This document shows, in pieces, positions 2,240-19,458 of a DNA stretch of 61,966 bases. The stretch lies in assembly GCA_013377075.1 (NCBI GenBank), contig JACABD010000010.1:7477-69442 (forward strand). The letters are read 5' to 3'. Within the stretch, counting starts at the first letter, position 1. Each line of letters begins with the position of its first letter. Both the position numbers and the translations under genes were made by a program. Source of the DNA: Geobacteraceae bacterium. GTDB lineage: Bacteria; Desulfobacterota; Desulfuromonadia; Geobacterales; DSM-12255. The notes under the pieces are model-generated. The model ran no database searches. It was given only the letters and a program-made list of their open reading frames with translations, and had not been told where the DNA came from.

Positions 2240-3308
2240 TGAGGGGGAGCCAGATTGTTACCCTTGAACCTCTGCCAGGGGTGCTCGCTATATTAATACT
2301 CCCGCCGTGCATTCGGACAAAATCCCTGGCATAGAAGAGGCCAAGTCCAAATCCCCGTACCTGCCCGGTATTTTGAGGGTCTATCTGGTAAAACTTTTCA
2401 AAAATCTTCGGAATTTCGTCATGGGGGATTCCCGCTCCGGTATCCCTTACCTCTATGAAGACCCCTGAAGCGTCTGATCTGACAGAAATGGTGACTTCAC
2501 CCTCTTCGCCGGAAAATTTAAAGGCGTTATCAATAATCTGCTTTAAAGCAAAAGCAATCTTCTCCCGATCTATTTCAACAGCCGGAACCTCCGGCAAGTC
2601 AAGGATAGCCTCTACTGCCGGCTTAATGGCTATCTCACGGGACTCGGCAAGGATGGTGTGAATAATCCTTGTTATAGAGTATGGCTCACGCCTGAGAGCC
2701 TCACCTGTATCCATCATTCGGCTGAAAACGAGCAGGTCACCGACAAGCCTCTCAAGATAAGACGACTCATCTGAAATCATTTTTACATGAACCTTGAAAT
2801 CGGGATCATCCAGAGAGAACACCCCGGATGTAAGGTTCTGCATAAAAAGTGAGATCGAGGTAAGTGGCGTCCTGAACTTATGGGAAATTATGGAAAGAAA
2901 ATTCGACTTCAAGCGGTCAAGAGATTTGAGAGAAGCGATCTCCTCCTTGAGGGCTTTCTTTACCAGAGCCTTGTCTACTGCGGTTTTAAGCTGAAGCAGA
3001 TTCAACGGTTTTGCAATAAAGTCGTCGGCATCGGCCTTGAGGGCGTTGAGGATGACATCCTTTTCAGCAAACCCGGTCATCACTATGACCACGATGGTCG
3101 GCTCTTTCTCCTTTATCCGTTTCAAGAGCTCGATCCCATCCATACCAGGCATCATGACATCGGTAAGGACGACATCAATCCCCCCCTTTTCGAAATGAGC
3201 AAGTGCATCCTTGCCGTTACCGGCCTGAACAACATGATACCCTTTCAGGGCCCGTGAGCAGAGATCACGGATAACAGCCTCATCATCAACGATCAGGATG
3301 GTTTTCAT
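2220..3308 (-). CDS. hybrid response regulator receiver / sensor histidine kinase
   Basis: A 362-aa soluble two-component protein with its receiver first. Residues 1-115 are a CheY-like receiver (acidic DDE at 8-10, phospho-acceptor Asp50, Lys100). A short coiled segment follows, then a HisKA domain with His143 in SHKFRTPL and a HATPase_c domain with the N-box DNAFKFS, DTGAGIP and GLGLFYARDF. The residue after the phospho-acceptor His is Lys where kinases usually have Glu. There is no membrane segment, so it likely takes phosphate or an interaction from another protein. The ATG at 3308 has AGGAG 6 nt upstream. The longer open frame starting at 3359 lacks a ribosome binding site. It follows alaS in the same direction. 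Confidence 0.88.
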   Translation of the reverse strand: MKTILIVDDEAVIRDLCSRALKGYHVVQAGNGKDALAHFEKGGIDVVLTDVMMPGMDGIELLKRIKEKEPTIVVIVMTGFAEKDVILNALKADADDFIAKPLNLLQLKTAVDKALVKKALKEEIASLKSLDRLKSNFLSIISHKFRTPLTSISLFMQNLTSGVFSLDDPDFKVHVKMISDESSYLERLVGDLLVFSRMMDTGEALRREPYSITRIIHTILAESREIAIKPAVEAILDLPEVPAVEIDREKIAFALKQIIDNAFKFSGEEGEVTISVRSDASGVFIEVRDTGAGIPHDEIPKIFEKFYQIDPQNTGQVRGFGLGLFYARDFVRMHGGSINIASTPGRGSRVTIWLPLKAAQTA

Positions 3309-3377
3309 CTGAATCTCCTGACGAAGCTCAACTACATTTTTTTGGGATAATCCGGGCATTTAGGTCTTTTCCATGTT

Positions 3378-6008
3378 TTAGACGATGAGTGAATAGAGCT
3401 TCTCTACGGCCTCTGTCAGCTTTTCCGGCTGGCTTCCGCCTGCCTGCGCCATCTCTGGCTTGCCACCGCCACTGCCGCCGACTATAGGCGCCATCTGCCT
3501 GATCAGATCACCCGCCTTGAAGCGGGAGGTCAAATCGCTACTTACTGTAACCAGCAGGGTTGCCTTGCCGCCGATATTCGCGCCTAGAGCAAGAATGCCG
3601 CTGCCGAGTCGATCTTTGAGAGAGTCGGCAAGGTCACGCAGCTTCTTGACATCATCAACCAGAACTTCTGCAGCAAGCGCTTTTATACCGGCAATTTCCC
3701 GCACATTCGCGAGAAGGTCAGCCGATTTTCCGGCATTAAGTTGTGCCTGAAGTGTCTCGACCTCTCTTTGCAGCTCCTTCTGACGGGCTATCAGCCGCTC
3801 AACCCTGTCCAGTATACCGCCACCTTCTGCTTTGACAAGTGCCGCAACCTTGCTCTGTTCAATTTCCAGGTCCTGAACAAAACCGACCGCTCCGGCACCG
3901 GTAACAGCCTCAATACGCCGTACACCCGCAGCTATCCCTGCTTCACTGACCAGCTTAAAGAAGCCGATATCTCCGGCAGCGGAAACATGGGTGCCGCCGC
4001 AAAGCTCCATACTGACATCGCCGACCCTGACCACCCTGACACTGTCGCCATATTTTTCACCGAAGAGTGCTGTTGCTCCGCTTGAAATCGCCTCTGTCGC
4101 TGCCATCTCCCGGGAATCAACGACGCTGTTCATCATGATAAATCCGTTTACAATCTGCTCAACCTGCCTGATCTCCTCTGTAGTCATTGCCGAGAAGTGG
4201 GTAAAGTCGAAGCGAAGCCGCTCCGGTTCCACAAGTGAACCCGCCTGCTTTACATGTTCTCCAAGAATCTGGCGAAGGGCCGATTGCAGCAGGTGGGTTG
4301 CCGTATGATTTCTTGCTGTGGCCCCCCTCTGTGTCAGATCGACTTTGAGGTCAATGGCTTCTCCGCATTTTATGGTGCCGTTTTCAACAACAGCCCGGTG
4401 GATGACAAGGTCAGTGAAAGGCCTGAGCGTGTCAATGACCTTGAGATGGGCACTTCCGGTCGAGACAGTCCCGATATCGCCGGACTGCCCACCTGACGCG
4501 CCGTAAAACGGGGTCGAATCGGCAATCAGGTCAACCGTATCGCCGACTGTCGCCTCCTCAACCAGCGCCCCTTTGGCGATGAGAGTCCGCACAACCGAAT
4601 AGCCGGCAAGATGATTGTACCCGGTAAATTCACTCCGTATGCCGTCACTGTGAAGCTGCTTGTAAATATCCGCGATTCCTGCCTCACCGGATCCTTTCCA
4701 GTGCTCACGCGCCTGGGCACGTTGCTTCTCCATGCAGATCTCGAAACCGGGCTCATCAACGGTCATCCCTTCTGCGGCCATAATATCCGCAGTCAGATCA
4801 ACCGGGAAACCGAAGGTATCGTAAAGGCGAAAGACTGCATCCCCGCAAAGCTGCCTGCTACCGCTTGCTTTTAGTGCTGCAATCTCTTCGTTAAGAATTG
4901 CAAGCCCCCTGTCGAGGGTCTCATTAAAGCGCTCCTCTTCGGCGAGGATAACCTTTTTCACATACTCTTCACGTTCGAGCAGTTCAGGAAATGCCTCGGC
5001 CATGATCGAATTGACCGCATCAACAGCCCTGAACAGCATCGGCTCTGCAAAGCCGAGCATCTTGGCATGACGGGCGGCACGGCGCATGATACGCCGCAGC
5101 ACATAGCCGCGCCCTTCGTTGGAGGGCAATACGCCATCACAGATCAGGAAAGTTACCGCGCGGGAGTGATCGGCAATTACCCGCATGGAGACATCATCTT
5201 TTTCATCATCCCCGTATTTCTTGCCGGAAAGTTTGGCAACATACTGAATTATCCCCTGGAGGAGGTCGGTATCATAGTTGGTAGTTTTCCCCTGCATGAC
5301 CGTGCAGATCCGCTCCAGGCCCATCCCTGTGTCAACAGCAGGCTTTGGCAGCGGATGGAGAACGCCGTCAGCAGTCCTGTTGAACTGCATGAAGACGTTA
5401 TTCCAGATCTCCATGTAGCGGTCACAGTCGCATCCTACCGCACAGTCGGCCTCACCACAGCCGGTTCCGGGGCCGTTGTCCCAGAATATCTCGCTGCATG
5501 GACCGCAAGGGCCGGTATCACCCATGGACCAGAAGTTATCCTTCTCGCCAAAGCGGTAGATCCGCTCGCGCGGAACCCCCTCCTGCTGATTCCAGATATC
5601 CGCTGCCTCGTCGTCATCGGTATAAACGGTTACGTAGAGCCTCTCTTTATCCAACTTAAGCTCTTCGGTAAGAAAGCGCCATGCAAAGGCTATGGCCTCT
5701 TTTTTGAAATAGTCGCCAAAAGAGAAATTGCCGAGCATCTCGAAAAAGGTGTGGTGACGTGCGGTTCTGCCGACATTCTCCAGATCGTTATGCTTTCCCC
5801 CGGCACGTACACACTTTTGTGAACTGACGGCACGAACATAATCACGCTTCTCCATGCCAAGAAAACAGTCCTTGAACTGGTTCATCCCTGCATTGGTAAA
5901 GAGCAGCGTCGGGTCGTTATGGGGCACCAGACCTGAACTGGCAACCACCGTATGTCCGTTCTGCTCGAAATAACCCAGAAATCTGGCCCTAAGCTCTTTG
6001 CCCGTCAT
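3378..6008 (-). CDS. alaS: alanyl-tRNA synthetase
   Basis: An 876-aa class II synthetase, full length, charging tRNA-Ala in the cytoplasm. The N-terminal catalytic part shows [18 protein letters not shown] (motif 2 area). The editing domain has [12 protein letters not shown] and the CGGTH metal-binding motif. A C-Ala region with [15 protein letters not shown] closes the protein. The ATG overlaps the recX stop codon as ATGA, with AGGAG 8 nt upstream, so the two genes are translationally coupled. The recA-pilT-recX-alaS order is typical of Geobacter-like chromosomes; recX-alaS adjacency is widespread in proteobacteria. Confidence 0.98.
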
Positions 6009-6496
6009 CTGTCAAACTCCTTGTCCTTATTTGTAAAATAGCTGGTGATCGAATGAAGCGAGAATCCGCGACGCTGAAGGTATGAGTAAACTCTCTGTTT
6101 CTCTTTCAGGGGTGCGCTTGAAGGATCAAATGCGGAAAATCGTCTGGAAACTATGGCTGCTAGGGAGTCATACTCCGGATACTCGGATGCTGCATTTTCA
6201 ATGGCCTGCGAAGCGATCTCGCGGGAAATCCCCTTTCGTGAAAGCTCCTGCAAAATCCTTATGCCGTAGCCCCGGCCGCTCCTGATTGCATACTCAGTCC
6301 ATCTCTGGGCAAAGCGCCGGTCATCAAGATAACCTTCATGTGCAAGCTTTTGGATGGCTTCGTCTATACCTTCTGAAGAATACCCCTTGGCAGAAAGTTT
6401 ACGCCCGAGTTCGTCTGAAGAGTGATCACGCCTGGCCAGCAGCGAGACTGCCCGCAGATAGATTTCGGAAGCAGTGCTGCTCTTAGAACCTTTCAA
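6005..6496 (-). CDS. recX: regulatory protein RecX
   Basis: RecX binds RecA filaments and inhibits or modulates RecA. The protein is about 163 aa when started at the TTG at 6496, a normal RecX length. Conserved segments include [20 protein letters not shown] and [12 protein letters not shown], followed by helical repeats. A longer in-frame extension to 6646 runs antisense to nothing but lies inside pilT in another frame, and its arginine-rich residues do not look like RecX, so I excluded it. The TTG start is uncertain because no strong ribosome binding site precedes it. The start overlaps the pilT end by 14 nt and the stop overlaps alaS by 4 nt, so coupling is likely. Confidence 0.85.
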
Positions 6497-7649
6497 TGTC
6501 CGGATTTGCGCCCGACGGCGCTTCCTCAGTCTCACCTTCTGTGGTCGCAGTAAACTGATCCCATGAGCTGTTTGATGTCGATGAAATCCCTGAAATCTTG
6601 AGCGCAAAGTCGTCAGGATTGGTCGACTGCCGCAGTGCCTCTTCATAGCTGATGAGCTTGTTTGTATAAAGCTGCATCAGTGACTGGTCAAACGTCTGCA
6701 TCCCGTAGGTTGTATAACCTTGTGTAATTGCGTCCGGTATCTGCTTTGTCTTTTCCTTGTCATCAATGCACTCTCTAATTCTGGCGGTACCAATCATTAC
6801 CTCAACCGCAGGGACACGCCCCTTGCCATCTATTTTCGGAACCAGCCTCTGGGAAACAACCCCCTTAATGACAGAAGAGAGCTGCATCCTCACCTGCCTC
6901 TGATGGTATGGCGGGAAGACGGAGATGATCCGGTTAATGGTTTCAGCGGCATCAAGTGTATGCAGGGTTGACATGACAAGGTGTCCGGTCTCTGCCGCTG
7001 TAACTGCCGTTTCTATGGTCTCAAGATCGCGCATCTCGCCAACCAGGATTACGTCCGGGTCCTGACGTAGCGCCCCTTTGAGAGCAGCCGAGAATGATAG
7101 CGTATCAAAACCTACCTCTCTCTGGCTGAGGATGCTCTTCTTATCCCTGTGGAGGAATTCCACCGGATCTTCAACAGTAATGATATTGCTGGTGCGGTTC
7201 TCGTTGATATAGTCGATCATTGCCGCAAGAGTGGATGACTTGCCGCTTCCGGTTGTCCCGGTAACAAGAATCAGCCCCCTCTCTTCCATTGCAATCTTCT
7301 TCAGCACCGGTGGGAGATTAAGCGATTCAAGGCTGGGGATATTAAAAGAGATTGCCCGAAAGACAATGGCAACGCTGCCGCGCTGATGATAGGCACTTAC
7401 CCTGAAGCGGCATACACCGGGGACACCGTAGGAGAGATCGACTTCATAGTTGCTGTCGAACTGTTCCCTTTGGCGCTGATTCATCATCGAATGTGCCATC
7501 TCCATGACTGTATCGCTGGAGAGCCGGTGACTGTTGGGAATCGGTCGCAATTTGCCATCTATCCTGACAACAGGGGGGAGACCGGTTTTGATGTGAATAT
7601 CCGAGGCTCTGGCTTTTACCGCGATGGTCAGTATTTCGTTGAGATCCAT
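6483..7649 (-). CDS. pilT: type IV pilus retraction ATPase PilT
   Basis: A 388-aa PilT-type secretion ATPase, which powers type IV pilus depolymerisation at the inner membrane. The N-terminal PAS-like domain covers about 1-110. Walker A is GTTGSGKSST (131-140), followed by the Asp box with VEDPVEF, Walker B DVILVGEMRD, and the His box STLHTLDAAETI. A 40-residue Ser/Thr/Glu-rich tail after the core is longer than in Escherichia-type PilT. The start has AAGGAG 6 nt upstream, overlapping the recA stop. Geobacter genomes carry several PilT paralogs, so which one this is cannot be told from the window. Confidence 0.93.
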   Translation of the reverse strand: MDLNEILTIAVKARASDIHIKTGLPPVVRIDGKLRPIPNSHRLSSDTVMEMAHSMMNQRQREQFDSNYEVDLSYGVPGVCRFRVSAYHQRGSVAIVFRAISFNIPSLESLNLPPVLKKIAMEERGLILVTGTTGSGKSSTLAAMIDYINENRTSNIITVEDPVEFLHRDKKSILSQREVGFDTLSFSAALKGALRQDPDVILVGEMRDLETIETAVTAAETGHLVMSTLHTLDAAETINRIISVFPPYHQRQVRMQLSSVIKGVVSQRLVPKIDGKGRVPAVEVMIGTARIRECIDDKEKTKQIPDAITQGYTTYGMQTFDQSLMQLYTNKLISYEEALRQSTNPDDFALKISGISSTSNSSWDQFTATTEGETEEAPSGANPDIERF

Positions 7650-7652
7650 CTG

Positions 7653-8663
7653 CTACTCCTTGGCAGCTACGGCTCCCGGCAGACCTAGGGAGGCAAGAAG
7701 CTTTTCCCTGATCTCGGCGCACATTGCAGGCTGATCTTTCAGGTAGATTCGGGTATTCTCTCTCCCCTGGCCGATTCTGTCCTTGCCGTAGGAGTACCAG
7801 GCACCACTCTTGTCCACTATCCCCTTCTCAACTGCCATATCGAGAAGATCACCCTCTTTCGAGATCCCTTCGCCGTAGAGTATATCAAATTCGACCTCCT
7901 TGAACGGAGGGGCCACCTTGTTCTTCACCACCTTGACCTTGGTACGGGAACCGATAACATCGGTCCCCTGTTTCAGGGTCGCAATTTTCCTGATGTCCAT
8001 TCTTACAGAAGCGTAGAATTTAAGGGCGTTGCCCCCTGTGGTGGTTTCCGGATTGCCGAACATGACCCCGATTTTCATCCTGATCTGGTTGATGAAAATA
8101 ACGCAGCAGTTGGATTTGGAGATAATGCCGGTGAGTTTCCTCAGGGCCTGGGACATGAGCCGTGCCTGAAGCCCCATATGGGAATCCCCCATATCACCCT
8201 CGATCTCTGCCTTTGGCACAAGCGCCGCAACCGAGTCAACTACGAGAATATCTATGGCGCCGCTTCTGACAAGGGTCTCTGTGATTTCGAGCGCCTGTTC
8301 GCCAGTATCCGGCTGGGAGACGAGAAGATCGTCGGTCTTGACGCCGAGCTTTCTGGCGTAACCGATATCCAGAGCATGCTCAGCATCAACAAAAGCTGCG
8401 ATGCCGCCAAGCTTCTGGGCTTCGGAGATAATATGAAGTGCAAGAGTGGTTTTTCCGGATGACTCCGGGCCAAATATCTCAATCACCCGGCCGCGCGGGA
8501 CTCCGCCAACGCCAAGGGCAACATCAAGAGAAAGGGCTCCTGTAGGAATTGCAGGAACATCAGGGAGTGGCTGATCGTTGCCAAGCCGCATGATCGAACC
8601 TTTACCAAATTGCTTCTCTATCTGGCTGACCGCCAGTTCAATCGCCTTTTCTCTCTCCTGCAT
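7653..8663 (-). CDS. recA: recombinase RecA
   Basis: A 336-aa RecA, full length, for homologous recombination and SOS co-protease activity. Walker A is [10 protein letters not shown] (65-74), and the DNA-binding loop region reads [23 protein letters not shown] in part. The ATG has AGGAG 8 nt upstream. Downstream genes pilT, recX and alaS follow with tiny gaps or overlaps. A sigma70-like promoter lies at 8704-8732, and I saw no obvious LexA box in the short upstream gap. Confidence 0.98.
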
Positions 8664-8703
8664 GGGTAAGTCTCCTCGGTTGATATTTCAATTGTTTGCA
8701 AAG

Positions 8704-8732
8704 TTTTAACACAGTTTTATAAAGCTTTTCAA
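8704..8732 (-). promoter_or_regulatory. candidate promoter upstream of recA
   Basis: On the minus strand TTGAAA (8727-8732) and TTAAAA (8704-8709) are separated by 17 bp, in the 78-bp gap between the pncC-like gene and recA. This would give recA its own promoter in addition to read-through. Confidence 0.4.
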
Positions 8733-8741
8733 GCTATTCCC

Positions 8742-9215
8742 TTAAGGCAAAAGAGTGCCTGAAAGAAGTTCCAGTGCGGCTTCCGACGTTGCCTCTCTTA
8801 TGGCATCCCGATCCCCGTTAAAGAGGTGTTGAAAGACGCTACAGCCGTCAGCTGATGCAATGGCAATGAATACCGTTCCGACCGGCTTTTCCGGTGTTCC
8901 GCCATCGGGTCCTGCTATCCCTGTTGTCGCAATGCCAAGATCGCTGCCGGAGAGTTTCCTGACCCCTTCTGCCATGGCAGATGCGACCTCACTGCTGACC
9001 GCCCCGTGCGTCTCCAGCAGCTCCAGCGGCACACCGAGAACCCTCTCCTTGGAACTGTTCGCATAGGTTACCGCTCCAAAGAGGAAATAGCCGGAGCTGC
9101 CGGGGATATCGGTAATCCGCTTGGCAATCAGACCGCCGCTGCACGACTCGGCTACAGAGAGAGTCAACCCTGAACCACGCAAAAGCGCTGCAATTTTCTG
9201 GTCGAGTGAGCTCAA
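8742..9215 (-). CDS. pncC: CinA C-terminal domain protein, nicotinamide-nucleotide amidase
   Basis: A 157-aa stand-alone CinA C-terminal domain (PncC family), which deamidates NMN to NaMN for pyridine-nucleotide recycling. Family signatures are TLSVAESCSGGLIAKRIT, the GAVTYAN block and GIAGPDGGTPEKPVGTV. The N-terminal MoaB-like half of full CinA is absent, as is common. The start is TTG at 9215, with GAGG upstream, overlapping the pgpA stop as TTGA. The gene next to recA is often cinA, which fits this order. Confidence 0.9.
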   Translation of the reverse strand: MSSLDQKIAALLRGSGLTLSVAESCSGGLIAKRITDIPGSSGYFLFGAVTYANSSKERVLGVPLELLETHGAVSSEVASAMAEGVRKLSGSDLGIATTGIAGPDGGTPEKPVGTVFIAIASADGCSVFQHLFNGDRDAIREATSEAALELLSGTLLP

Positions 9216-9661
9216 ACAAACCTCACAATGACAAGCAGGCAGAGCCAGGCATAGAGCCCGGCAGCGACATCATCCAGAACTACACCGTAACCATTTTTGA
9301 CTTTCTGATCGAACCATCTGGCCGGAGGTGGCTTGACTATATCGAAGAGGCGAAAGAGGAAGAATCCGGCAACCATGTAGCGCCAGTCATAGGGGATGGC
9401 GATCATGGTGACAAGATAGCCGACAACCTCATCAATAACAATCTTGCCGGAATCTTTTTCGTTGAACAAAACCTCTGCCTCTCCGGAAACCCAGCAGGCA
9501 AGGAAGAAAAAGGCGACCAGTGTCAGCAGATACATCGGCAAAGAAAGCCTGGCAAGCCAGATGTAGAAGGGGATTGCTGCCAGCGTACCTACGGTGCCGG
9601 ATGCAAAGGGGGAGTAGCCGCTCCCCCCCCAGGTTGCCAGCAGTTTTACGATAAAATTCAT
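9212..9661 (-). CDS. pgpA: phosphatidylglycerophosphatase A
   Basis: A 149-aa integral inner-membrane phosphatase that dephosphorylates phosphatidylglycerol phosphate. Conserved blocks are the N-terminal GYSPFASGTVGTLAAIP, the acidic DEVVGYLVTM and FRLFDIVKPPPARW, and a DDVAAGLYAW segment near the C-terminus, with three to four membrane helices between them. It overlaps larC upstream and the pncC-like gene downstream by 4 nt each, so the three are probably one transcript. Confidence 0.93.
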   Translation of the reverse strand: MNFIVKLLATWGGSGYSPFASGTVGTLAAIPFYIWLARLSLPMYLLTLVAFFFLACWVSGEAEVLFNEKDSGKIVIDEVVGYLVTMIAIPYDWRYMVAGFFLFRLFDIVKPPPARWFDQKVKNGYGVVLDDVAAGLYAWLCLLVIVRFV

Positions 9662-10812
9662 CTGAATTCCCTTGAAAGTATTGTCATAATGTCACGCAGC
9701 GGTTTACCTGTTTCGGCGGCAACCCTGCGACAGTCGTCAAACTCCGGCTTTTCACCAAATTCGTTCACCTTGAAACGGACTCTGCCAAAGGTTGTCTCCC
9801 TGACCTCAACCCTTCGCTCCAGAACGGTTCGGGAAACCGGGTAACTCCTGATGCCGATGGCAGTTGTCTCCTCAAAAACAATCCGGCTGAGGCTATCGGC
9901 CTTTTCCTGAGAAGTTATGATCGAAAGCATGACAGCTGGTCGGCACTTTTTCATCTGGATCGGTGTGAACCAGACATCCGCCGCACCTTCTGCAAGGAGG
10001 CGCTCCATGGCATAGCCGAGCATCTCCGGCGTCGAATCATCAATATTGGTCTCGATTACGACCATCTCCCCGTCCAACCGCTCTGATCCTGCTTCGCCGA
10101 GAAAAAGCCTGAGAATATTGGGGATATCGGCAAAATCCTTTGATCCAGCACCGTAGCCGATTTTATCAATTTTCATTGCCAAAGGAGCACCGAAACTCTC
10201 TGCGAGAGCAACCACAATAGCGGCTCCGGTCGGTGTGACCCGCTCGCCACTGCCACTTGCCGGGTGAAACGGCACCCCTTTCATAAGCTCTGCCGTAGCA
10301 GGTGCAGGGAGCGGTATCCGGCCATGCTCACACTGAACAAAGCCGCTGCAAAAGGGGAGAGATGAGGAGCTGACATGCTCGATGCCAAGATAATCGAGAC
10401 AGATGGCAACACCGATTATATCGACAATCGAATCAACCGCACCGACTTCGTGAAAATGAACCTCCTCCACGCTGACGCCATGAACCGTGGCTTCAGCCTC
10501 GGCAAGACGCCTGAAGATCCTTTCAGCGCGGCTCTTCACATTATCGGACAGAGTGCTGGAAGATATAATCGCAAGGATATCGGCAAAATGGCGGTGCGTA
10601 TGATGATCATGGAGAACAACATCGAAATTCAGCGCCGAGATTCCATGTCGCTTCGTCCTCTCAAGAGAGAGCCTGTACGAATCTATCGGCAGAGAGAGTT
10701 TTGAGAGCTCTGAATCAAGGACGTCCAGAGGCACGCCGAGATCCAACAGGGCTCCCACAGTCATATCTCCGGATACCCCTGCCTGACAGTCAAAATAAAG
10801 AGTTTTCATCAT
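9658..10812 (-). CDS. larC: nickel pincer cofactor biosynthesis protein LarC (TIGR00299 family)
   Basis: A 384-aa LarC homolog. LarC inserts nickel into the pincer nucleotide used by lactate racemase-type enzymes. Visible signatures are YFDCQAGVSGDMTVGALLDL, the His-rich stretch HDHHTHRHFADI at about 88-99, VEEVHFHEVGAVDSI, and the C-terminal EKPEFDDCRRVA. The gene is a single continuous frame, unlike the frameshifted Lactobacillus version. Two adjacent ATG codons (10812 and 10809) are possible starts. Partners larB, larE and larA are not in the window. LarC alone occurs in many genomes, so its role here is inferred. Confidence 0.85.
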   Translation of the reverse strand: MMKTLYFDCQAGVSGDMTVGALLDLGVPLDVLDSELSKLSLPIDSYRLSLERTKRHGISALNFDVVLHDHHTHRHFADILAIISSSTLSDNVKSRAERIFRRLAEAEATVHGVSVEEVHFHEVGAVDSIVDIIGVAICLDYLGIEHVSSSSLPFCSGFVQCEHGRIPLPAPATAELMKGVPFHPASGSGERVTPTGAAIVVALAESFGAPLAMKIDKIGYGAGSKDFADIPNILRLFLGEAGSERLDGEMVVIETNIDDSTPEMLGYAMERLLAEGAADVWFTPIQMKKCRPAVMLSIITSQEKADSLSRIVFEETTAIGIRSYPVSRTVLERRVEVRETTFGRVRFKVNEFGEKPEFDDCRRVAAETGKPLRDIMTILSREFR

Positions 10813-10952
10813 CCTTCGCGTCCCTGTTTAACTATCCGCTTTTAGTCCGTCTATATTGATTTATTCTCGAATTTTGTCTACATATTTTAGCTGAACAAAG
10901 GTTAAATTGATGTATCATTCAACATATTGAAAACCTTACGGAGCATCAAATA

Positions 10953-11480
10953 ATGATCGAACTTTTGCGCAAACGAAGAAGCATCAGAAAATTCTGTGCT
11001 GAACCGGTCTCATCTGAGCACCTTGACACTATTCTAGAAGCTGCTCTGCGGGCACCATCCTCCAGGGGAATCAACCCATGGGAGTTCATAGTTATTGATG
11101 ACCCGAATCTACTCAAACAGCTTTCAACGGCAAAACAGCACGGCGCCGAGTTCCTGAAAAATGCCCCACTTGGAATTGTTGTCTGCGCTGAGACAACAAA
11201 GTCGGATGTCTGCATTGAGGACTGCTCAATCGCTGCGATAATTATCCAGCTGACTGCCCTGTCTCTTGGCCTTGGCAGCTGCTGGGCGCAGATGCGCTGC
11301 CGTTTCCGGGGGGAAAAGGAGAGCGCGGAGAGCTATATCAGGGAGCTTTTGGGGCTGCCGGAGCATTTTCTTGTAGAGGCCGTAATCGGCATAGGCCACC
11401 CTGACGAGCAAAAACCGCCGGTCAAGGCAGAGACGCTTCAGAGAAAGAAGATCAGCTACAACCGCTGGGGTGCCAGATGA
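10953..11480 (+). CDS. nitroreductase family protein
   Basis: A 175-aa flavin (FMN) oxidoreductase. The family start IELLRKRRSIRKF (phosphate contact), the LRAPSSRGINPWEFIVI block and the C-terminal VEAVIGIGHPDEQKPP are present. A Cys-containing ECSIAA-like helix (ED-C-SIAAIIIQLTAL) precedes GLGSCWAQ. The ribosome binding site is ACGGAG. The stop overlaps the following radical SAM start by 4 nt, so the two are translated together. The natural substrate is unknown. Confidence 0.85.
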   Translation: MIELLRKRRSIRKFCAEPVSSEHLDTILEAALRAPSSRGINPWEFIVIDDPNLLKQLSTAKQHGAEFLKNAPLGIVVCAETTKSDVCIEDCSIAAIIIQLTALSLGLGSCWAQMRCRFRGEKESAESYIRELLGLPEHFLVEAVIGIGHPDEQKPPVKAETLQRKKISYNRWGAR

Positions 11481-12370
11481 ACGGCAGGATGCCGCGCTAT
11501 GTCGAACCACTGTTCAGGCCGCCGAGTGAGGCAAGGAGTCTCATTTTTCAGATCACCATCGGCTGTTCACAGAATACGTGCACTTTTTGCGGTATGTACA
11601 AAGGGAAGAAATTTCGTATAAAGCCTCTACAGGAGGTACTTGACGAAATAACCGCAATACCTGCCATGTACCGGCAGGTGGTGACACGGGTATTTCTTGC
11701 CGATGGAGATGCTCTTGTCTATCCGTTTGACGGACTTCGCACCATCCTCGAAGCCCTTGCCGTCAATTTCCCGAAACTCGCCCGAATCGGCTCATATGCT
11801 TCCCCTGCAAGCCTGAAGACAAAAAACCTGGAGCAGCTTGAAATGCTTCGTGATAAGAAACTCCGCATTCTCTACTTCGGCCTTGAGTCCGGAGATGATG
11901 AAACTCTCTGGAATATCAAAAAGGGGTTTACCTCGGATGAAATGGCAATGGAGGCGAATAAAGCCCGCAGCGCCGGGATGAAGCTCTCTGTGACCGCAAT
12001 TCTCGGGCTGGCGGGAAGGAGAGGAACCCTTCTCCATGCTAAAAATACCGGGGAGTGGGTAAACCGTGTCAGCCCGGAATACTTCTCACTGCTGACCCTT
12101 TTCCATCGCCACAATGATGACTTTGTCCGCTCCCTTGAGCAGTGCACTCACAGGGAGCTGATGATGGAGGCACGGGAGATGGTGTCACAGATGAATAGCT
12201 GCGCAACCATCCTCAGATCCAATCATGTATCAAATTTTCTCAATCTGGAGGGAACTTTTCCAAAAGACAGGACAAGAGTGCTTGGCGACATAGACGCGGC
12301 ACTGGAGCGGGCTGCCAGACATCCGGGGTTTCTTGATGCAGTGCCGGAATATAGTGAGGAGTATTATTAG
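11477..12370 (+). CDS. radical SAM protein with CX4CX2C cluster motif
   Basis: A 297-aa radical SAM enzyme. The iron-sulfur ligands are Cys30, Cys35 and Cys38 in TIGCSQNTCTFCGMYKGKKF, a CX4CX2C spacing instead of the canonical CX3CX2C. From memory, this spacing with the MYKGK-F continuation belongs to a recognisable uncharacterised subfamily. The later segments LFYFGLESGDDE-like (RILYFGLESGDDETLW) and LSVTAILGLAGR are normal radical SAM barrel elements. It has no C-terminal accessory domain. It overlaps the nitroreductase gene by 4 nt and ends 7 nt from the convergent kinase gene. Function is not known. Confidence 0.82.
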   Translation: MNGRMPRYVEPLFRPPSEARSLIFQITIGCSQNTCTFCGMYKGKKFRIKPLQEVLDEITAIPAMYRQVVTRVFLADGDALVYPFDGLRTILEALAVNFPKLARIGSYASPASLKTKNLEQLEMLRDKKLRILYFGLESGDDETLWNIKKGFTSDEMAMEANKARSAGMKLSVTAILGLAGRRGTLLHAKNTGEWVNRVSPEYFSLLTLFHRHNDDFVRSLEQCTHRELMMEAREMVSQMNSCATILRSNHVSNFLNLEGTFPKDRTRVLGDIDAALERAARHPGFLDAVPEYSEEYY

Positions 12371-12377
12371 GAGCGAG

Positions 12378-14348
12378 CTAATCCTGCCACGGAAGCAGTA
12401 CTGTAAATTCTGCTCCGCCGCCTGAGTGGTTCCGTACCTTGATCTTGCCGTTGTGATTAGTGACGATACGTGCTGCAATCGGCAACCCGAGCCCTGTGCC
12501 ACTCCCTTTTGTTGTGAAAAACGGTGTAAAAATGCTGTTTTTCATCGAATCCGGAATCCCTCCGCCACTGTCGGCAATCTTTACGGCAACCGCCCTCTCC
12601 TTGCCCAGCTTTGCCAAAGTCACCGACACCCTCAGTGTACCGCCACCCTTCATTACATCGAGTGCATTATGAAAAAGATTTATAAAAACCTGCTTTAACT
12701 GCTGACAGTCAGAGTAAAGCATCATCTCTATTTTCGGGTAGGATTTTACAAGAGTGACCATGTTCTTCTCAAACAGATGGCTGACTATAGCAAGAGAGTT
12801 GTCAACAATATCGGTTATAGCGCATCTGTCATAGCAGATGGTCGTCTTTTTTGCGTATGAAAGCACCTCATCAAGCATGTTTTCAAGCCTCAGCTCCTCC
12901 TCGATAATTGTGGCAACGTAGCCCGCCTCTATCGAATCAGGCGCAGTCTTTTTTGCCAGTCTCCTTGCAAATCCACCAATGGCGACCATCGGCCCTTTAA
13001 GCTCATGGGCAATGCTTGCCGCCATCTCGCCGATTGTCGCCAGACGCTCTCCATGGACAAGTTGCGCCTGTGTCTCCTGAAGCCGGCTGTTAGCATCCTC
13101 AATAGAGCTGTATAGCATTATATTTTCAATAGCTATGCTGGCATGCTTTGAAAAAAGCTGCAGGAATTTAAGGTCGTTTCTGCCGATCTCCTTGTGAGAG
13201 CACGGATTATCAACGACCACGACTCCGAACACCCCATGATTGCCCATCAACGGCATAATGGCAAATGAGCCTGTTTTCAATCGACTAAAGATTTCAGGGA
13301 ACTCCTGACCGTTTCCCTGCTGCACTTTACCTGAAAAAACCTTTTTTTCAGCAACTGACCGATAAAACAGATCTCTCCCTTTTTTCAGGACAATCCGGCA
13401 TAAGCGGAGCTCACTGTTGAGCACTGATGCCTCATCTGACAGACCGTACATACTGATTGAGAAGAAGTTTTCATCGGTTTCATGGGTAGCAAAAAAAGCC
13501 TCTTCCCCCCTGACAGCACCGAGCATCCCTTGAAGAGTATTTGTCCTCTCGTTAAGGAGAAAAAGCATTGCCCGGTCGAAAAAAAGCGGTGCATTTGAGG
13601 TGAGTGCAGTAAGAATTATGCCGGTAAGCCGGTTGAGCCGGATTTTTGAGAGGTTTAGACTGCTCAGACGATTAAGAATAAGCAGCTCTTTCAGTTTGTA
13701 GTTATTCTGCTCGTTAATACGCTGAAGCTGAAGAGTCCTTATTTCAACCCTTCGCTCAAGGCCTATATTGAGCCTTTTGATCTGCTGCTCAGCACGTTTG
13801 CGCTCGAAAATCTCTTTTTGAAGCATCTGATTTGATTCTGAAAGTTTTGAGTTCCTCCCGAGGAGAAGCTTGTCATGTTGTAACTTCAGCTCTTGCGAAC
13901 TACGCTCCGATTCGTGTACGAAACCAATCTCTATTTTGTCAAAGTAGCGATCGATAAAAGAATGGGCCCATCTTGGCTGATCAAGTGAACTGTAATTTTC
14001 GTCAATTATGTCGTGATAGCACTGCCTGAAGTATTTCATCATGCCGAGAAACATCACCAGTGTAACCCCTCTCAAGCGATGCTTCTTTGCCTGAGCTGTG
14101 CCAAAGGCTATCACAGGGTCATGTACAGGGTCCATATCAGGAGTGAGTGGAGGAATCTCAACTGACAGTTCCAGTGATGCGACAAGCCCTGAAGAAAGCT
14201 CATGCACAGCTTTTTTCCAGACAGCTTCATCAGTCGGAGTATGGGGATATTTAGAGTAGCCGCTCTCTTGAGCAAAAAGGATGATTCTGCGGACTAACGC
14301 AGCTTCGCCATGCCTGATAACATGAGCAAGGCCGCTCATGTTCAGCAT
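12378..14348 (-). CDS. sensor histidine kinase with GAF domain
   Basis: A 656-aa soluble sensor kinase. Residues 1-150 form an all-helical N-terminal region I cannot assign. About 150-225 is coiled coil, 240-410 a GAF-like sensor, 430-500 the HisKA domain (His448 in [16 protein letters not shown]), then HATPase_c with [19 protein letters not shown] and [13 protein letters not shown]. No membrane helix or signal peptide is visible, so it senses a cytoplasmic cue or a partner. No response regulator is adjacent. The ribosome binding site is weak (GGGAT), so the start could be a few codons off. Confidence 0.85.
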
Positions 14349-14508
14349 ATCCCGCAGAGGGCAAACGGAAATGATTCCAGATTAATTGATCGGGGGTAAT
14401 CTGCTGATAACGTATGGCTTGAAGATACATCTGCAAGATTATACATCTCTGCTTCATAGTGACTGCCAGAGTCAGTTACACGGTGCAGAGGCTTATTCAT
14501 TGGCAGGG

Positions 14509-14865
14509 TCAGGGGGTCTTTTCTTTTCGCTCTTCTTCAATCTTGCAGTCTATGCAGAGCGTTGTAACCGGTCTGGCCTTGAGACGACCTTCACTGATAT
14601 CCTCACCACAAAGCTCACAGACTCCGAACTCTCCCTGATCCAGACGCTCCAGAGCCTCCTTGATCTTGTTGATGAGCTTTCTTTCGCGGTCGCGAATCCT
14701 CAATTCAAAGCTTCTGTCCGACTCCTGGGTAGCACGATCGGTCGGGTCAGGGAAATTAACATTTTCTGCTGTCATCTCGGAAACCGTCTTTCCTGCCTCT
14801 CCCAGCAGAGTCCGCATTTCCTCGTTTAGAACCTGCCTGAAATATTCCAGTTTGTCCTGTTCCAT
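14509..14865 (-). CDS. dksA: DksA/TraR-type RNA polymerase-binding protein
   Basis: A 118-aa DksA-family protein that acts in the secondary channel of RNA polymerase, with ppGpp, in the stringent response. The N-terminal coiled coil carries acidic residues near the tip (NFPDPTDRATQESD; the usual DPxDxA pattern is present). A four-Cys zinc finger is formed by Cys83, Cys86, Cys104 and Cys107 (CELC...CIDC). The strong ribosome binding site AGGAGG lies upstream of the ATG. A 160-bp gap follows downstream to the kinase gene, in which I see no further gene. Confidence 0.93.
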   Translation of the reverse strand: MEQDKLEYFRQVLNEEMRTLLGEAGKTVSEMTAENVNFPDPTDRATQESDRSFELRIRDRERKLINKIKEALERLDQGEFGVCELCGEDISEGRLKARPVTTLCIDCKIEEERKEKTP

Positions 14866-14943
14866 AGCCGCTTGCCTCCTGAATTCAAGCCTCTATTAAA
14901 AAATATTTCTGCCGGCAAGTAAAGACATTTTTAAAATTACGTT

Positions 14944-16293
14944 TCACATCCCCTTATCAAGCGCTTCATCTACGCTTTTAACCCCGATGAGCTCAATCCC
15001 TTTTACCTTAACCTGCTTGAGGTTGCCGACCGGAAGTACGCATCTGGTAAAGCCCAGTTTGAGCGCTTCCTTGACCCGTATCTCCGGCTGGCTTACAGCT
15101 CTAACCTCTCCGGAGAGGCCGACTTCACCGATAAATACGGTCTGCGGATCAACTACCCTGTCGAGGTGGCTAGAAGCAACTACTGCAACAATGCCGAGAT
15201 CTGCGGAAGGCTCATTCAATCTGACTCCGCCGGCAGCATTGAGAAAGATATCCTGCCCTGAGAGGTGAAGCCCGACCTTTTTCTCCAGAACCGCCACCAA
15301 AAGTGCAAGACGGTTGTGATCCACACCGATTGTCGTTCTTCTTGGATTACCAAAAGAAGTCGATGATACAAGCGCCTGCAATTCTACAAGCAGCGGCCTT
15401 GTCCCCTCAAGGGCCGCAACAACCACTGAACCTGGAACACCGGTCGGCCTTTCGGACAAAAAGAGCTCTGAAGGATTGCGCACTTCACAAAGACCACTTT
15501 CTTTCATCTCGAACACGCCAATTTCATTTGTTGACCCGAATCTGTTCTTGACTGCACGAAGTATCCTGTAGGCATGGCCGCAGTCCCCCTCGAAATAAAG
15601 CACCGTATCAACAAGATGCTCAAGGACTCTTGGCCCGGCAAGTGCTCCGTCCTTGGTAACATGGCCGACCAGGAATATCGGCACACCACTCCCCTTGGCA
15701 AGTGTCATCAGGCGTCCGGCAGACTCCCTGACCTGGCTTACGCTTCCAGGCGCCGAATCAAGTGCAGAGGTAAATACTGTCTGGATTGAATCGATAATGA
15801 CTGCTTTTGGCTTCATCGCTTTTATGTGTGTAGCTATCCTCTCAATTCCGGTTTCTGCAAGCAGGTAGAGCTCCTCCGCTACGACACCCATCCTTGTTGC
15901 GCGAAGCTTTATCTGCTCGGCAGATTCTTCAGCAGAGACATAAAGAACTGTCCCAGCCCCCCTTGAAAGGTGAGACGCCGCCTGAAGAAGCAGTGTGGAC
16001 TTCCCTATGCCGGGATCTCCGCCGATAAGCACCATAGATCCGGAAACAAGCCCGCCACCAAGCACCCGATCAAATTCCGAAATGCCGCAGGAAAGGCGCT
16101 GCTCCGCTGCTCTTGTAACATCTGATAACCTGATCGGCTTTGAGGCCTCTCCCGGGAGGGACGAAGCTGATCCTTTAAGCTCCGGCTCCTCAACCATACT
16201 ATTCCATTCGCCGCAATCAGGACATTTTCCAAGCCACTTTGGCGCCTGGCAGCCGCACTTCTGACAGGCAAAGAGTGTTTTTGTTTTCGCCAT
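14944..16293 (-). CDS. radA: DNA repair protein RadA
   Basis: A 449-aa RadA/Sms, a branch-migration ATPase in recombination. An N-terminal C4 zinc finger has Cys10, 13, 24 and 27. Walker A is GGDPGIGKST (91-100), the RadA-specific KNRFGS motif follows, and a C-terminal Lon-like domain holds the rest. The ATG at 16293 is chosen because AGGAG lies 5 nt upstream. An in-frame ATG 5 codons further up precedes that Shine-Dalgarno sequence and is less likely. It is followed on the same strand by dksA. Confidence 0.96.
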   Translation of the reverse strand: MAKTKTLFACQKCGCQAPKWLGKCPDCGEWNSMVEEPELKGSASSLPGEASKPIRLSDVTRAAEQRLSCGISEFDRVLGGGLVSGSMVLIGGDPGIGKSTLLLQAASHLSRGAGTVLYVSAEESAEQIKLRATRMGVVAEELYLLAETGIERIATHIKAMKPKAVIIDSIQTVFTSALDSAPGSVSQVRESAGRLMTLAKGSGVPIFLVGHVTKDGALAGPRVLEHLVDTVLYFEGDCGHAYRILRAVKNRFGSTNEIGVFEMKESGLCEVRNPSELFLSERPTGVPGSVVVAALEGTRPLLVELQALVSSTSFGNPRRTTIGVDHNRLALLVAVLEKKVGLHLSGQDIFLNAAGGVRLNEPSADLGIVAVVASSHLDRVVDPQTVFIGEVGLSGEVRAVSQPEIRVKEALKLGFTRCVLPVGNLKQVKVKGIELIGVKSVDEALDKGM

Positions 16294-16420
16294 TTTCACT
16301 CCTCTCATACTTTACATTTCCAAGTTGCGTTAATATATACCAAACACCCTGTTAATGCTTGCAAATTTGATTGATTCCGTTACGATATGGGTTCAGGTTT
16401 ATCATCTCAGGGAGTAAACC

Positions 16421-18103
16421 ATGCGATCCAGTCGAGATCTTCAGCAGCCAGAAGACAAATCAGCCGCGTTACTGCTCGATGCAGCAATTAACGCTCTGGC
16501 CAAGGCTCTGAAAGCGATGAATTTCTATCCGCCCGAACATCCGCTGCGCGATGAAAGCGTCTCATCTGCACTTGAAAACCTGAACGATCTTTTGAGCGGA
16601 AGCCAGCTGGTTCTTCTTTGGTCAAGGGAAGCATGTACCCTGGCAGGTGACCCTCCAATCAAAAACAGCTCTTTGACAGCAAGATCACTCGCAAGGGAGA
16701 TGCTGACCCGCAAGCTTCAGCGTCTTATCATACTTCCTGGTCTTTCATTATCGGATCTGAAGGCATTTCTCTCAATCGCAACAACAGATGCGGCCAACAT
16801 TCAAACTGAAGGCGGAATTGAGGCCGCCATGCTCAACTCCGGAATAACAACCATCTGCGCCAATGAAGTAAATCTATCGCTGCTTTCCACTATCAAAAAT
16901 GGATCAACCGAGCCCCAAACGGCTCCGACTCCCGGCACTGAAGGAACTGAAGCTGACCCGGATTCAGCTGTTGCCGAAGGGGAAATTTCAACAGGTGGAA
17001 TAGGGATTGAGCAGCAGAAAGACAACGATAAAACACCTGCTCATAATTCTCAGGATAATGCTGAAGCTACCCTTGATCTCCAGTTTTCAAAACTCGGTAT
17101 GGATATTCTTCTCGGGATGCTCAAAGCCGAAGACAGGGAGTCCCATTTCCTTCAGCTTGCCCGGGAAGTTATTGACTCCTCCGAAGAGTTCAAGCAACAG
17201 GAGGCTTTTGAAGCTCTTTTGCATGTGATTGAAGCCCTGATCGAGATTTACTTCTCATCCGGACGTTCTTCGTCCCAGAAAGAGTTTATCAAATATGCCC
17301 TCGAACAGATTGCCAGCGGAGCAATGACTGGCTTTTTGCTTGACAGAATAGAAGAACATATAGAGGGAAATGAGCCTCTGTTTAACAGCATCTGTTCTGT
17401 CCTGGGCCAATCACTGGCATATCCGCTCATCCAGAGACTCTGTGTTGCCGAGTCACTACATGCCAGGAAAACAATCGCAATCGCTCTGACCCGCTCCGGT
17501 GAAGCTGCTATTTCTGCACTTGTTGCAATGCTGCGGGATGAAAGATGGTATGTAGTCAGAAATATGGTTACAATACTTGGTGAGATCGTTTCACCTGAAT
17601 CGATAAAAGCCCTAAGGATGGTATCACAGCATCCGGAGCCCAAGGTGCGTAAAGAGGTAGTCAAAGCGCTGGTCAAGGTCAACCCGCAAGCCTCTGAAGC
17701 TCCACTTATTTCAATGCTTGCCGAACCTGACAAGGATGTATTACGCCAGGTAATATTCTCACTCGGGACAATCCGTTCGAAAACGGCCATAAGACCGCTT
17801 CTGGAAATGGTAAATGCAACCGATACTTTTCTCAAGGACCTCGAACTAAAAAAAATGGCTGTTTCAGCACTGGGTAGAATCGGTGACAAACAAGCAACTG
17901 AGCCTCTTCTGGACATTCTCTATGTGAAGGGTTGGTTTGCTCCACGCCGGTGGCATGAATTAAAAGTTGCAGCAGCAACAGCACTTGGACATATTGGCGA
18001 TGAAAGCGCTCTCCCAAAGCTGAAACGTCTGGCAAACAGTGATTCTGACCTTGGCAAAGCCTGTGGCGAAGCTACTGATAATATTGAGCGGGTTCTAAAA
18101 TGA
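16421..18103 (+). CDS. HEAT-repeat protein with N-terminal domain shared with the HD-GYP neighbour
   Basis: A 560-aa soluble protein. Residues 15-150 form a globular domain containing NFYPPEHPL and RLIILPGLSLSDLKAFL, which matches the start of the next gene in pattern. Residues 160-215 are a low-complexity Pro/Thr/Glu/Gly linker. From about 225 onward it is helical, ending in PBS/HEAT-like repeats (for example SLGTIRSKTAIRPLLEMV and ALGHIGDESALPKLKRL). HEAT arrays usually serve as protein-binding scaffolds. It has the ribosome binding site AGGGAG and ends in an ATGA overlap with the HD-GYP gene, which implies coupled translation and probable joint function. No catalytic motif is visible. Confidence 0.85.
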   Translation: MRSSRDLQQPEDKSAALLLDAAINALAKALKAMNFYPPEHPLRDESVSSALENLNDLLSGSQLVLLWSREACTLAGDPPIKNSSLTARSLAREMLTRKLQRLIILPGLSLSDLKAFLSIATTDAANIQTEGGIEAAMLNSGITTICANEVNLSLLSTIKNGSTEPQTAPTPGTEGTEADPDSAVAEGEISTGGIGIEQQKDNDKTPAHNSQDNAEATLDLQFSKLGMDILLGMLKAEDRESHFLQLAREVIDSSEEFKQQEAFEALLHVIEALIEIYFSSGRSSSQKEFIKYALEQIASGAMTGFLLDRIEEHIEGNEPLFNSICSVLGQSLAYPLIQRLCVAESLHARKTIAIALTRSGEAAISALVAMLRDERWYVVRNMVTILGEIVSPESIKALRMVSQHPEPKVRKEVVKALVKVNPQASEAPLISMLAEPDKDVLRQVIFSLGTIRSKTAIRPLLEMVNATDTFLKDLELKKMAVSALGRIGDKQATEPLLDILYVKGWFAPRRWHELKVAAATALGHIGDESALPKLKRLANSDSDLGKACGEATDNIERVLK

Positions 18104-19458
18104 ATTCTAAGTTGAGTTTGTCTACAGCACAGCGTATTGCATCGATTTTTTCCGGACTGATTCGCAACACTTCACTTTATCCTCCCGGAAACCCCGCATT
18201 GACGAGGCCACTTAACGAACTTCATACATTGATCGTCGACTATCTGGCAGGCTCTCCCTCCCTCAGAATCGGGCTTTCCGATGAGATCCTCTTCCTTGAG
18301 GAACATCTTTTTGTCACTGCGCCCCAACAGGTCGAAGATCTGGCCACCCATTTTGCCTCCCGTAAAGTGGAAGCTGTCATCATTATGCCTGATGTGACTG
18401 CTGACGAGCTTTTCCAGTTATCAAAGCTATTTGCTGACCGTGCATTATCCACCGAAAGCCTGATAGATCATCTTGAAGACTCCGGTATCACGCATATTCT
18501 AGTTATAGCTCAGGGTGATAATGAAGAGCGGCTGCTGCATGAAGCCGGAAATGCCTACCAGGCGGCTCTGGACTCGGTAAGAACAGCTCTTATTGATATT
18601 GAAGCCAACAGGATTCCATCAAGCGAAAGGCTCCTAGCTGCAACACGGCAGTTTTCTGATGTAGCAGCCCAGGATCCGCAGATAGTTGCCTGCCTCTCCA
18701 TGATTAAGGACTACGACAACTACACGTTCAACCACAGTGTCAATGTCGGGGTCATATCACTATCGCTTGCTGCGTATATGAAACTTGATCGGATAAAGAT
18801 CGAGGAGGCGGGAATGGCCGGCTTTCTCCATGACATCGGCAAGACCCTGGTTCCCAAAACGATCATAAACAAACCAGGGAAACTCTCCTCCATCGAATTT
18901 GATGAAATAAAAAAGCATCCTGAAGACGGGGTAAAGATTATAAAAGCCATGCACGGTCTTTCAGGCAACATTGCAGAAGCAGTTCTCGGGCATCATCTGC
19001 GCTACAACAGAAAAGGTTACCCTGAATGGGCTAAAGATATGGAATTATCAAATCTAAGCCAGATCGTAGCCATTGCCGACTGCTTTGATGCCTGTACCAC
19101 CCTTCGCGTATATCAATTGCCCATGCCTCCGGCACAGGCCATAAAAGTGATGAAGCGACTGGCCGGTGAGTTTCTCAACCCTGAAATGGTAGAGAATTTT
19201 GCATCAATGATGGGTAAATACCCACCTGGCACACTCATAAGGCTAGATACAAATGAAATTGCCCTGGTATGGAAAGGGAACCTGGGGAATCCGGAAACTC
19301 CAAAAGTGCGTATTGTTTTTGACCGCTTTGGAAACAAGGTTGAGAAACCGGTTACTGAAAAACTAGAAGAGAGAAGGGGTGGTGCTCCGGCAATTGTTGC
19401 GATTATAGATCCGATTACTAAAGGTATAGATGTGGGGGACTACTTCAAGCAGGGTTAA
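18100..19458 (+). CDS. HD-GYP domain protein, probable cyclic di-nucleotide phosphodiesterase
   Basis: A 452-aa protein. Residues 1-140 are an N-terminal domain resembling that of the preceding HEAT protein (SLYPPGNPAL, VEAVIIMPDVTADELFQL). The HD-GYP domain follows at about 195-370, with NHSVNVG, the catalytic HD pair at 244-245 in FLHDIGK, HPEDG, and HHLRYNRKGYP at 298-308. The usual HHE-x-x-DG-x-GYP block is altered (Leu for Glu, Asn-Arg-Lys for Asp-Gly-x), while GYP itself is kept. HD-GYP enzymes hydrolyse c-di-GMP or cGAMP-type nucleotides. Activity here is probable, not certain. The gene overlaps the upstream gene by 4 nt and the convergent HEAT gene by 14 nt. Confidence 0.87.
   Translation: MNSKLSLSTAQRIASIFSGLIRNTSLYPPGNPALTRPLNELHTLIVDYLAGSPSLRIGLSDEILFLEEHLFVTAPQQVEDLATHFASRKVEAVIIMPDVTADELFQLSKLFADRALSTESLIDHLEDSGITHILVIAQGDNEERLLHEAGNAYQAALDSVRTALIDIEANRIPSSERLLAATRQFSDVAAQDPQIVACLSMIKDYDNYTFNHSVNVGVISLSLAAYMKLDRIKIEEAGMAGFLHDIGKTLVPKTIINKPGKLSSIEFDEIKKHPEDGVKIIKAMHGLSGNIAEAVLGHHLRYNRKGYPEWAKDMELSNLSQIVAIADCFDACTTLRVYQLPMPPAQAIKVMKRLAGEFLNPEMVENFASMMGKYPPGTLIRLDTNEIALVWKGNLGNPETPKVRIVFDRFGNKVEKPVTEKLEERRGGAPAIVAIIDPITKGIDVGDYFKQG

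Follow-up and report, generated by a model that had tools for sequence, protein, structure and literature searches.

Gene layout of the locus

We analysed a stretch of 61,966 nucleotides (nt) from a Geobacteraceae bacterium of the phylum Desulfobacterota (assembly GCA_013377075.1, contig JACABD010000010.1, positions 7,477 to 69,442 of the forward strand), here called the window. Our subject is a pair of consecutive genes in it, one encoding a protein with C-terminal HEAT repeats and the other a protein with an HD-GYP domain (Table 1). Both proteins begin with an alpha/beta domain of ~135 residues, which we label ND. An initial annotation of the window had described the two genes as overlapping by 4 nt and a third HEAT gene as facing them. 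Both descriptions are correct: the overlap is the ATGA at 18100-18103, and the third gene converges on the pair from the opposite strand.

The family HEAT_2 (PF13646) matched the first protein with 94.3 bits (E 5.5e-27) and the third with 78.9 bits, against a Pfam gathering threshold of 27.7. Pfam and NCBIfam scans recovered the HEAT repeats and the HD domain and gave no match in either N-terminus. The low-complexity linker of the HEAT protein spans about residues 165-220 (by eye), and in the HD-GYP protein a helix at residues 142-165 directly follows ND.

Table 1. Features of the window discussed in the text
Feature	Position	Strand	Description
ND-HEAT protein, 560 aa	16421-18103	+	N-terminal ND, low-complexity linker, C-terminal HEAT repeats
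ND of HEAT protein, about residues 16-150	16466-16870	+	YPPEHP motif from residue 36
ND-HD-GYP protein, 452 aa	18100-19458	+	HD_5 E 1.3e-27; probable cyclic-dinucleotide phosphodiesterase
ND of HD-GYP protein, about residues 5-140	18112-18519	+	YPPGNP motif from residue 27
HD-GYP catalytic domain, about residues 200-370	18697-19209	+	Pfam match and residue alignment
Third HEAT-repeat protein, stand-alone, 193 aa	19445-20026	-	Convergent, 14-nt overlap, no ND
GAF histidine kinase, DksA-family protein, RadA-like ATPase	12378-16308	-	Divergently upstream of the pair
T2SSE-family ATPase, 388 aa	6486-7649	-	
Alanyl-tRNA-synthetase-family gene	3381-6008	-	Same strand as the T2SSE-family gene
MshEN protein, 360 aa	51767-52846	+	Possible reader of cyclic di-GMP (c-di-GMP), away from the pair
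S-adenosylmethionine (SAM) riboswitch RF00162	31971-32074	-	92.8 bits

The two N-termini are homologous

Among 207 confirmed stretches with relatives, 80 were kept, and a score cut-off yielded an orthologue set of 66 HEAT and 68 HD proteins from 70 sources (the window, L009-L076 and L078). The initial annotation had suggested that both proteins share an N-terminal domain of roughly 130 residues and had named a profile-profile alignment as the way to check this. We ran this comparison using hhalign with 66 HEAT rows and 67 HD rows. The profiles aligned over 128 columns with a probability of 98.9, an E value of 3.4e-17 and a score of 103.2. Controls scored at most 20.5 (median 12.4) for 100 column shuffles, 12.3 for the reversed profile, and 10.0-16.3 for segments of both proteins outside ND and for the third HEAT protein. 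These shuffle, reversal and other-segment controls rule out chance similarity. The HEAT and HD-GYP N-termini are homologous, at an identity of 17-19% between the window's own two, depending on the alignment.

The hallmark of ND is a Y-P-x-x-H-P motif after the first helix. All 66 HEAT orthologues carry each of Y36, P37, H40 and P41; among the 68 HD orthologues, Y27 is found in 67, P28 in 66, H31 in 62 and P32 in 65, and in the window's own HD-GYP protein the H is replaced by N. The landmarks first read from the sequence are present, with YPP starting at residues 36 (HEAT) and 27 (HD), and ILPGLS at 104 and IMPDVT at 95, respectively. AlphaFold2 models built from separate 45-row alignments had a mean predicted local distance difference test (pLDDT) of 91.2 and a predicted template modelling score (pTM) of 0.80 for the HD ND, and 92.2 and 0.84 for the HEAT ND. 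The two models agree in the order of their secondary-structure elements: two long helices, then beta strands, a helix, a strand, helices, a strand and a trailing helix.

We also compared ND with known domains and folds. In a Pfam scan of 51 ND sequences no family reached E 1 in more than three members (lowest value of these 0.0065), and one single-member match was obtained (NAD_binding_10, 2.1e-4); neither GAF nor MshEN was among the families matched. Neither Pfam nor NCBIfam gave anything consistent, so that ND was rejected as a known domain of either library. The top match of a PDB profile search was Octarellin V.1 (E 0.023). Foldseek found no PDB chain at E ≤0.001 for either ND model (best E 0.074 and 0.25), and VIA-align no Z ≥5 [best Z 3.8 (80 aligned, root-mean-square deviation 8.3) and 4.0 (88 aligned, root-mean-square deviation 6.6)]. 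GAF-bearing chains (PelD, PDE6, PDE2A and phytochromes) recurred in Foldseek rows at E 0.07 or worse, too weak to use. A missing PDB match is no proof of a new fold.

ND genes mostly occur in conserved HEAT/HD pairs

The claimed coupling of the HEAT and HD-GYP genes is supported by their distribution. An ND-HEAT gene adjoins the HD gene upstream at 62 of the 65 orthologous loci that extend far enough to show it; at the three exceptions, fragments are present (L017), the form is split or weak (L067), or the gene is missing (L021). The window's own genome (95% complete) contains six ND matches, which form three pairs, with the HEAT gene preceding the HD gene each time: the window pair, a pair on contig C42, again with a 4-nt overlap, and a pair on contig C94 with a gap of 1 nt.

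At E 0.001, the ND profile matched 93/112 genomes at the level of the order; of 394 genomes sampled from the phylum, 160 had ND. The phylum search listed 150 places, 141 of which lie in an adjacent same-strand pair. For 122 of these pairs the assignment was by position alone (a same-strand mate starting 1.5-2.3 kb away). Reading the regions of the remaining 28 places revealed 19 pairs, three HD-only and five HEAT-only places, and one at a contig end. Among the 19, the partner at L225 has ND without a Pfam match, and the HEAT gene at L252 is cut by the contig end before ND. We read out 109 distinct pairs, of which 108 combine HEAT with HD, L225 being the other one.

Five genomes from outside the phylum that encode a comparable HD domain, four titled as Bacillota and one filed under Pseudomonas, gave no ND match. 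ND was also found in 0/199 genomes from the phylum of L080 (a Thermoclostridium metagenome-assembled genome by title), a sample without any genome known to match; the model used there matched 120/297 genomes elsewhere, a resampling of the window's phylum that is not independent of the 394-genome search. On plasmids, tblastn gave no match for the HEAT ND; the HD-GYP query matched 213 records, with a query cover of at most 68% among the 15 matches listed.

Lineages and correlated rates of ND

Paralogous pair types were labelled modules 1, 2 and 3 by simple cut-offs of length and hidden Markov model score, and two of the labels look wrong (L225 as module 2, L250 as module 3). A maximum-likelihood tree was calculated from 106 NDs and 143 columns; with so few columns, we grade the evidence of the tree as moderate. 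One branch of HEAT-type NDs (support 95/85) holds 20/20 from module 1, 11/15 from module 2 and one from module 3. A branch of HD-type NDs (80/90, below the tool's star) holds 20/20, 14/15 and three, respectively. Module 3 accounts for two more branches, one with nine of its 12 HEAT NDs and one with nine of its 12 HD NDs, each also containing an ND of L225, and the tandem NDs of cyclase-type proteins described below fall on one branch (100/98). The partner-specific branches suggest that modules 1 and 2 probably multiplied as whole pairs.

For 31 dereplicated module-1 loci we correlated evolutionary rates in ten domain comparisons after removal of RadA distances. The partial r between the two NDs was 0.53, the highest of the ten (bootstrap 0.38-0.64), and 0/2000 permutations were as high; this value is a correlated rate, not a contact. 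The HEAT ND gave lower values when paired with the catalytic domain of the HD-GYP protein (0.25) or with the third HEAT protein (0.14). Within proteins, the partial r was 0.45 for the HD ND with the HD domain and 0.35 for the HEAT ND with the C-terminal HEAT arm.

The HD-GYP domain retains most of its metal site

The closest PDB sequence matches of the HD-GYP protein were 4mcw (E 2.3e-20, residues 202-368), which we take to be the HD-GYP enzyme PmGH, and 5z7c (E 2.8e-17, residues 198-372), presumably V-cGAP3. The assignment of 4mcw is consistent with the residue numbering in PMC4159591. That paper gives E185, H189, H221, D222, H250, H276, H277 and D305 as metal ligands of PmGH, and D183 and K225 as putative catalytic residues. 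In the alignment to 4mcw, the ligands from H189 to D305 correspond to H212, H244, D245, H273, H298, H299 and D327 of the window protein, and the two catalytic residues to D206 and K248. All nine positions are invariant in 68/68 HD orthologues, as are the residues GYP (306-308) in the loop that follows HH; of the eight metal ligands, only E185 thus lacks an identical counterpart. We conclude from these residues that the HD-GYP protein is a probable cyclic-dinucleotide phosphodiesterase. Its substrate would be c-di-GMP or cyclic GMP-AMP (cGAMP). PMC6456294 reports a cGAMP synthase in Geobacter sulfurreducens and studies of this messenger in Geobacter.

The extended consensus HHExxDGxGYPxxxxxxxI is absent from the window protein, which reads HHLRYNRKGYPEWAKDMEL. 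Among the 68 orthologues, the E is replaced by I, L or V in 68, the D is kept in 17 and the first G is R in 63, and F is commonest at the position of the final I. These changes weaken a claim to the canonical sequence type and leave the claim of an intact metal site unaffected. Among 16 aligned HD proteins of module 2, the H of the HD motif is replaced by Y in two, and some members may thus be catalytically silent.

ND occurs in other cyclic-dinucleotide proteins

A search for further ND proteins and their output domains, also proposed in the initial annotation, recovered GGDEF, PilZ, cNMP-binding and histidine-kinase parts. Six chains of about 1410-1460 aa from five genomes carry two tandem NDs and HEAT repeats; two of them were scanned with Pfam and both begin with GGDEF and AAA_16 (GGDEF-AAA_16-ND-ND-HEAT). 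At L211, two ND-ND-HEAT paralogues are neighbours (3050-7393 and 7896-12176, minus strand), and GGDEF-AAA_16 starts the second, which is the one scanned. Other chains were of the types ND-HEAT-cNMP-PilZ (three), ND-HEAT-cNMP (one) and ND-PAS-HisKA-HATPase (one). These chains come from regions picked among weaker or unpaired matches and are not a census. The occurrence of ND in signalling chains, together with an HD-GYP metal site kept bar one ligand, supports the early view of the locus as a signalling module. The guess that the shared domain serves for dimerisation or input fits the tandem NDs in single chains and the correlation between the two NDs.

Genes for cyclic-dinucleotide proteins are also found next to ND pairs. 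The C42 pair of the window's genome has a receiver-MshEN protein on one side and on the other a T2SSE ATPase that also carries MshEN. Among the module-2 loci, six were viewed with wider surroundings (L109, L284-L288), and at four of them such a gene adjoins the pair: MshEN at L109, GGDEF at L285 and L287, and GGDEF-PilZ at L288. GGDEF itself matched the window's genome 18 times, in 17 frames. Upstream of the third pair of this genome (L110, 9930-12288, minus strand) lie two proteins that we named by eye, one resembling a lipoprotein and ending in what looks like an OmpA-type part, the other caspase-like.

Neighbouring genes

The third HEAT gene adjoins the pair at 51/64 orthologous loci with room (cut-off 80 bits) and, in more distant members of the phylum, lies near it at several loci. 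The ND model matched none of 117 open reading frames similar to the third HEAT protein, the window copy included. The third HEAT gene is a conserved neighbour of the pair, on the other strand and lacking ND. The partial r of 0.49 between the third HEAT protein and the HEAT arm of the ND-HEAT protein hints that the former follows the latter in rate.

The RadA-like gene upstream, which we presume to be radA, recurs at 39/64 orthologous loci with room to see it. The T2SSE-family ATPase may be PilT-like, a guess from its size. The SAM riboswitch was the sole gathering-level match of an Rfam scan of the window, which found no riboswitch at the HEAT/HD-GYP operon. A promoter scan gave six hits against a shuffled mean of 4.5 and a terminator scan four against 3.6; since these counts are close to the shuffled means, no promoter is claimed. 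An anti-phage defence system was considered and rejected: no PADLOC model fits, with partial matches for P0001 and P0003 (HEAT-type and others) and none for P0002.

Discussion

Our preferred interpretation, for which we hold the chances to be slightly better than even, is that the HD-GYP protein degrades cyclic dinucleotides as a phosphodiesterase and that its HEAT partner controls it through an asymmetric contact between the two NDs. The two genes would encode a switch for cyclic-dinucleotide breakdown made of two proteins, one partner per gene, in which one ND from each protein pairs asymmetrically with the other. The HEAT repeats would act as a sensing or docking arm, with the facing HEAT protein as a candidate ligand. 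The binding state of this arm would be relayed through the ND pair and the helix at residues 142-165 to the enzyme, which would then hydrolyse c-di-GMP (or cGAMP). Support for such an ND-paired switch comes from the controlled homology of the NDs, the conserved pairing, the ND lineages, the tandem NDs, the rate correlation, the metal site and the genomic context.

Several observations weigh against this interpretation. Unpaired NDs exist, namely the three HD-only and five HEAT-only cases among the 150 listed places, with one undecided at a contig end. Most HEAT and HD NDs of module 3 stand apart from those of modules 1 and 2; a preliminary tree that lacked modules 2 and 3 of the window's genome joined three HEAT and three HD NDs of module 3, and the 106-ND tree does not. 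The rate correlation is modest, with RadA as the sole control gene, and it is nearly matched by that of the HEAT arm with the third HEAT protein (0.49) and with the HD ND (0.45). Loci of modules 2 and 3 have few flanking genes in common, and nine neighbours scanned at L284 and L286 had no cyclic-dinucleotide domain. In the HD-GYP domain itself, the consensus HHExxDGxGYP is altered to HHLRYNRKGYP in the window protein, and the equivalent of the PmGH ligand E185 is Y208, a tyrosine in 68/68 orthologues. According to PMC4159591, a bi-nuclear HD-GYP subgroup has been described, and the replacement of E185 by Y points to this subgroup.

The unpaired NDs, together with the single ND in the PAS-histidine kinase chain and in the PilZ-type chains, would also be explained if ND were a small-ligand input domain that each protein uses on its own, in monomeric or homodimeric form, so that the HEAT and HD-GYP proteins share a stimulus and an operon without touching. 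PmGH, which has the same layout with GAF, a long dimerisation helix and HD-GYP, is described as a homodimer in PMC4159591. However, 141 of the 150 listed places are paired, NDs occur in tandem, the ND lineages of modules 1 and 2 are partner-specific, and the top partial correlation of the ten is that between the two NDs. We therefore regard separate input domains as unlikely, at perhaps one chance in several.

Alternatively, ND could be no more than a tag for assembly or localisation. The HEAT and HD proteins would then be separate clients of some third factor, such as a pole or pilus machine, and the HEAT protein would exert no control over the enzyme. The position of the C42 pair between its two MshEN-bearing neighbours, one of them a T2SSE ATPase, would agree with this, as would the presence of another T2SSE protein and another MshEN protein in the window. 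However, no relatives of the two C42 neighbours were found at the five other module-2 loci viewed with wider surroundings (L284-L288), a locus of the same genus included, and we consider a tag improbable. Finally, a degenerate HD-GYP domain that acts as receptor or regulator and not as phosphodiesterase would account for the altered consensus (E to I, L or V in 68/68, first G to R in 63/68), for the invariant tyrosine at the E185 position and for the two of 16 module-2 proteins with Y for the H of HD, but it is very improbable given that all 68 orthologues keep the remaining seven metal ligands and the two putative catalytic residues, and that the E185A mutant of PmGH keeps some activity and a bi-nuclear subgroup is known (PMC4159591).

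Beyond the switch at this locus, we propose with somewhat more doubt than belief that ND is an undescribed alpha/beta signalling domain, possibly of a new fold, that acts as an asymmetric pair. HEAT proteins would then regulate HD-GYP phosphodiesterases across Desulfobacterota, and through ND the same kind of HEAT arm would be connected to GGDEF cyclases (where two NDs stand in tandem within the chain), to PilZ receptors and to histidine kinases.

HD-GYP enzymes with N-terminal regulatory domains are already known. PmGH, a c-di-GMP phosphodiesterase of the GAF-HD-GYP type from Persephonella marina, resembles the window protein in its order of N-terminal domain, connecting helix and HD-GYP domain, and the proposed relay through the helix after ND resembles the long dimerisation helix between GAF and HD-GYP described for PmGH in PMC4159591. 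PmGH differs in its N-terminal GAF domain and in being described there as a homodimer, whereas the window protein has Y for E185 and a HEAT partner gene. The 3'3'-cGAMP-specific phosphodiesterase 3 of 5z7c is alike in the HD-GYP catalytic domain, its match spanning the HD part only; this likeness suggests that the substrate here may be cGAMP. MshEN proteins, known as c-di-GMP receptors (PMC5013675), flank the C42 pair and occur once elsewhere in the window, and MshEN is absent from the families matched by the 51 NDs. The HEAT arm resembles bacterial HEAT proteins of the PBS-lyase type, its C-terminal repeats matching HEAT_2 and PBS-lyase-like HEAT. Scores for NblB (40.8, cut-off 300) and CpcE (39.1, cut-off 330) are far under the cut-offs, so these names do not apply. 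Neither ND nor its HEAT/HD-GYP pairing is named in the libraries used, and among the papers listed by our searches of open-access literature there was no account of either.

HD-GYP enzymes are widespread, and to our knowledge the switch of many of them is not known. If our interpretation is correct, a partner (the HEAT scaffold) and a joint (ND) of an HD-GYP enzyme would be identified, both directly assayable, and a set of HEAT-repeat proteins in relatives of Geobacter would gain a function. An unnamed domain would be added to the cyclic-dinucleotide toolkit of a group that respires metals and electrodes. With ND also present in cyclase, receptor and kinase proteins, one signal route would become traceable across the synthesis, breakdown and reading of the messenger.

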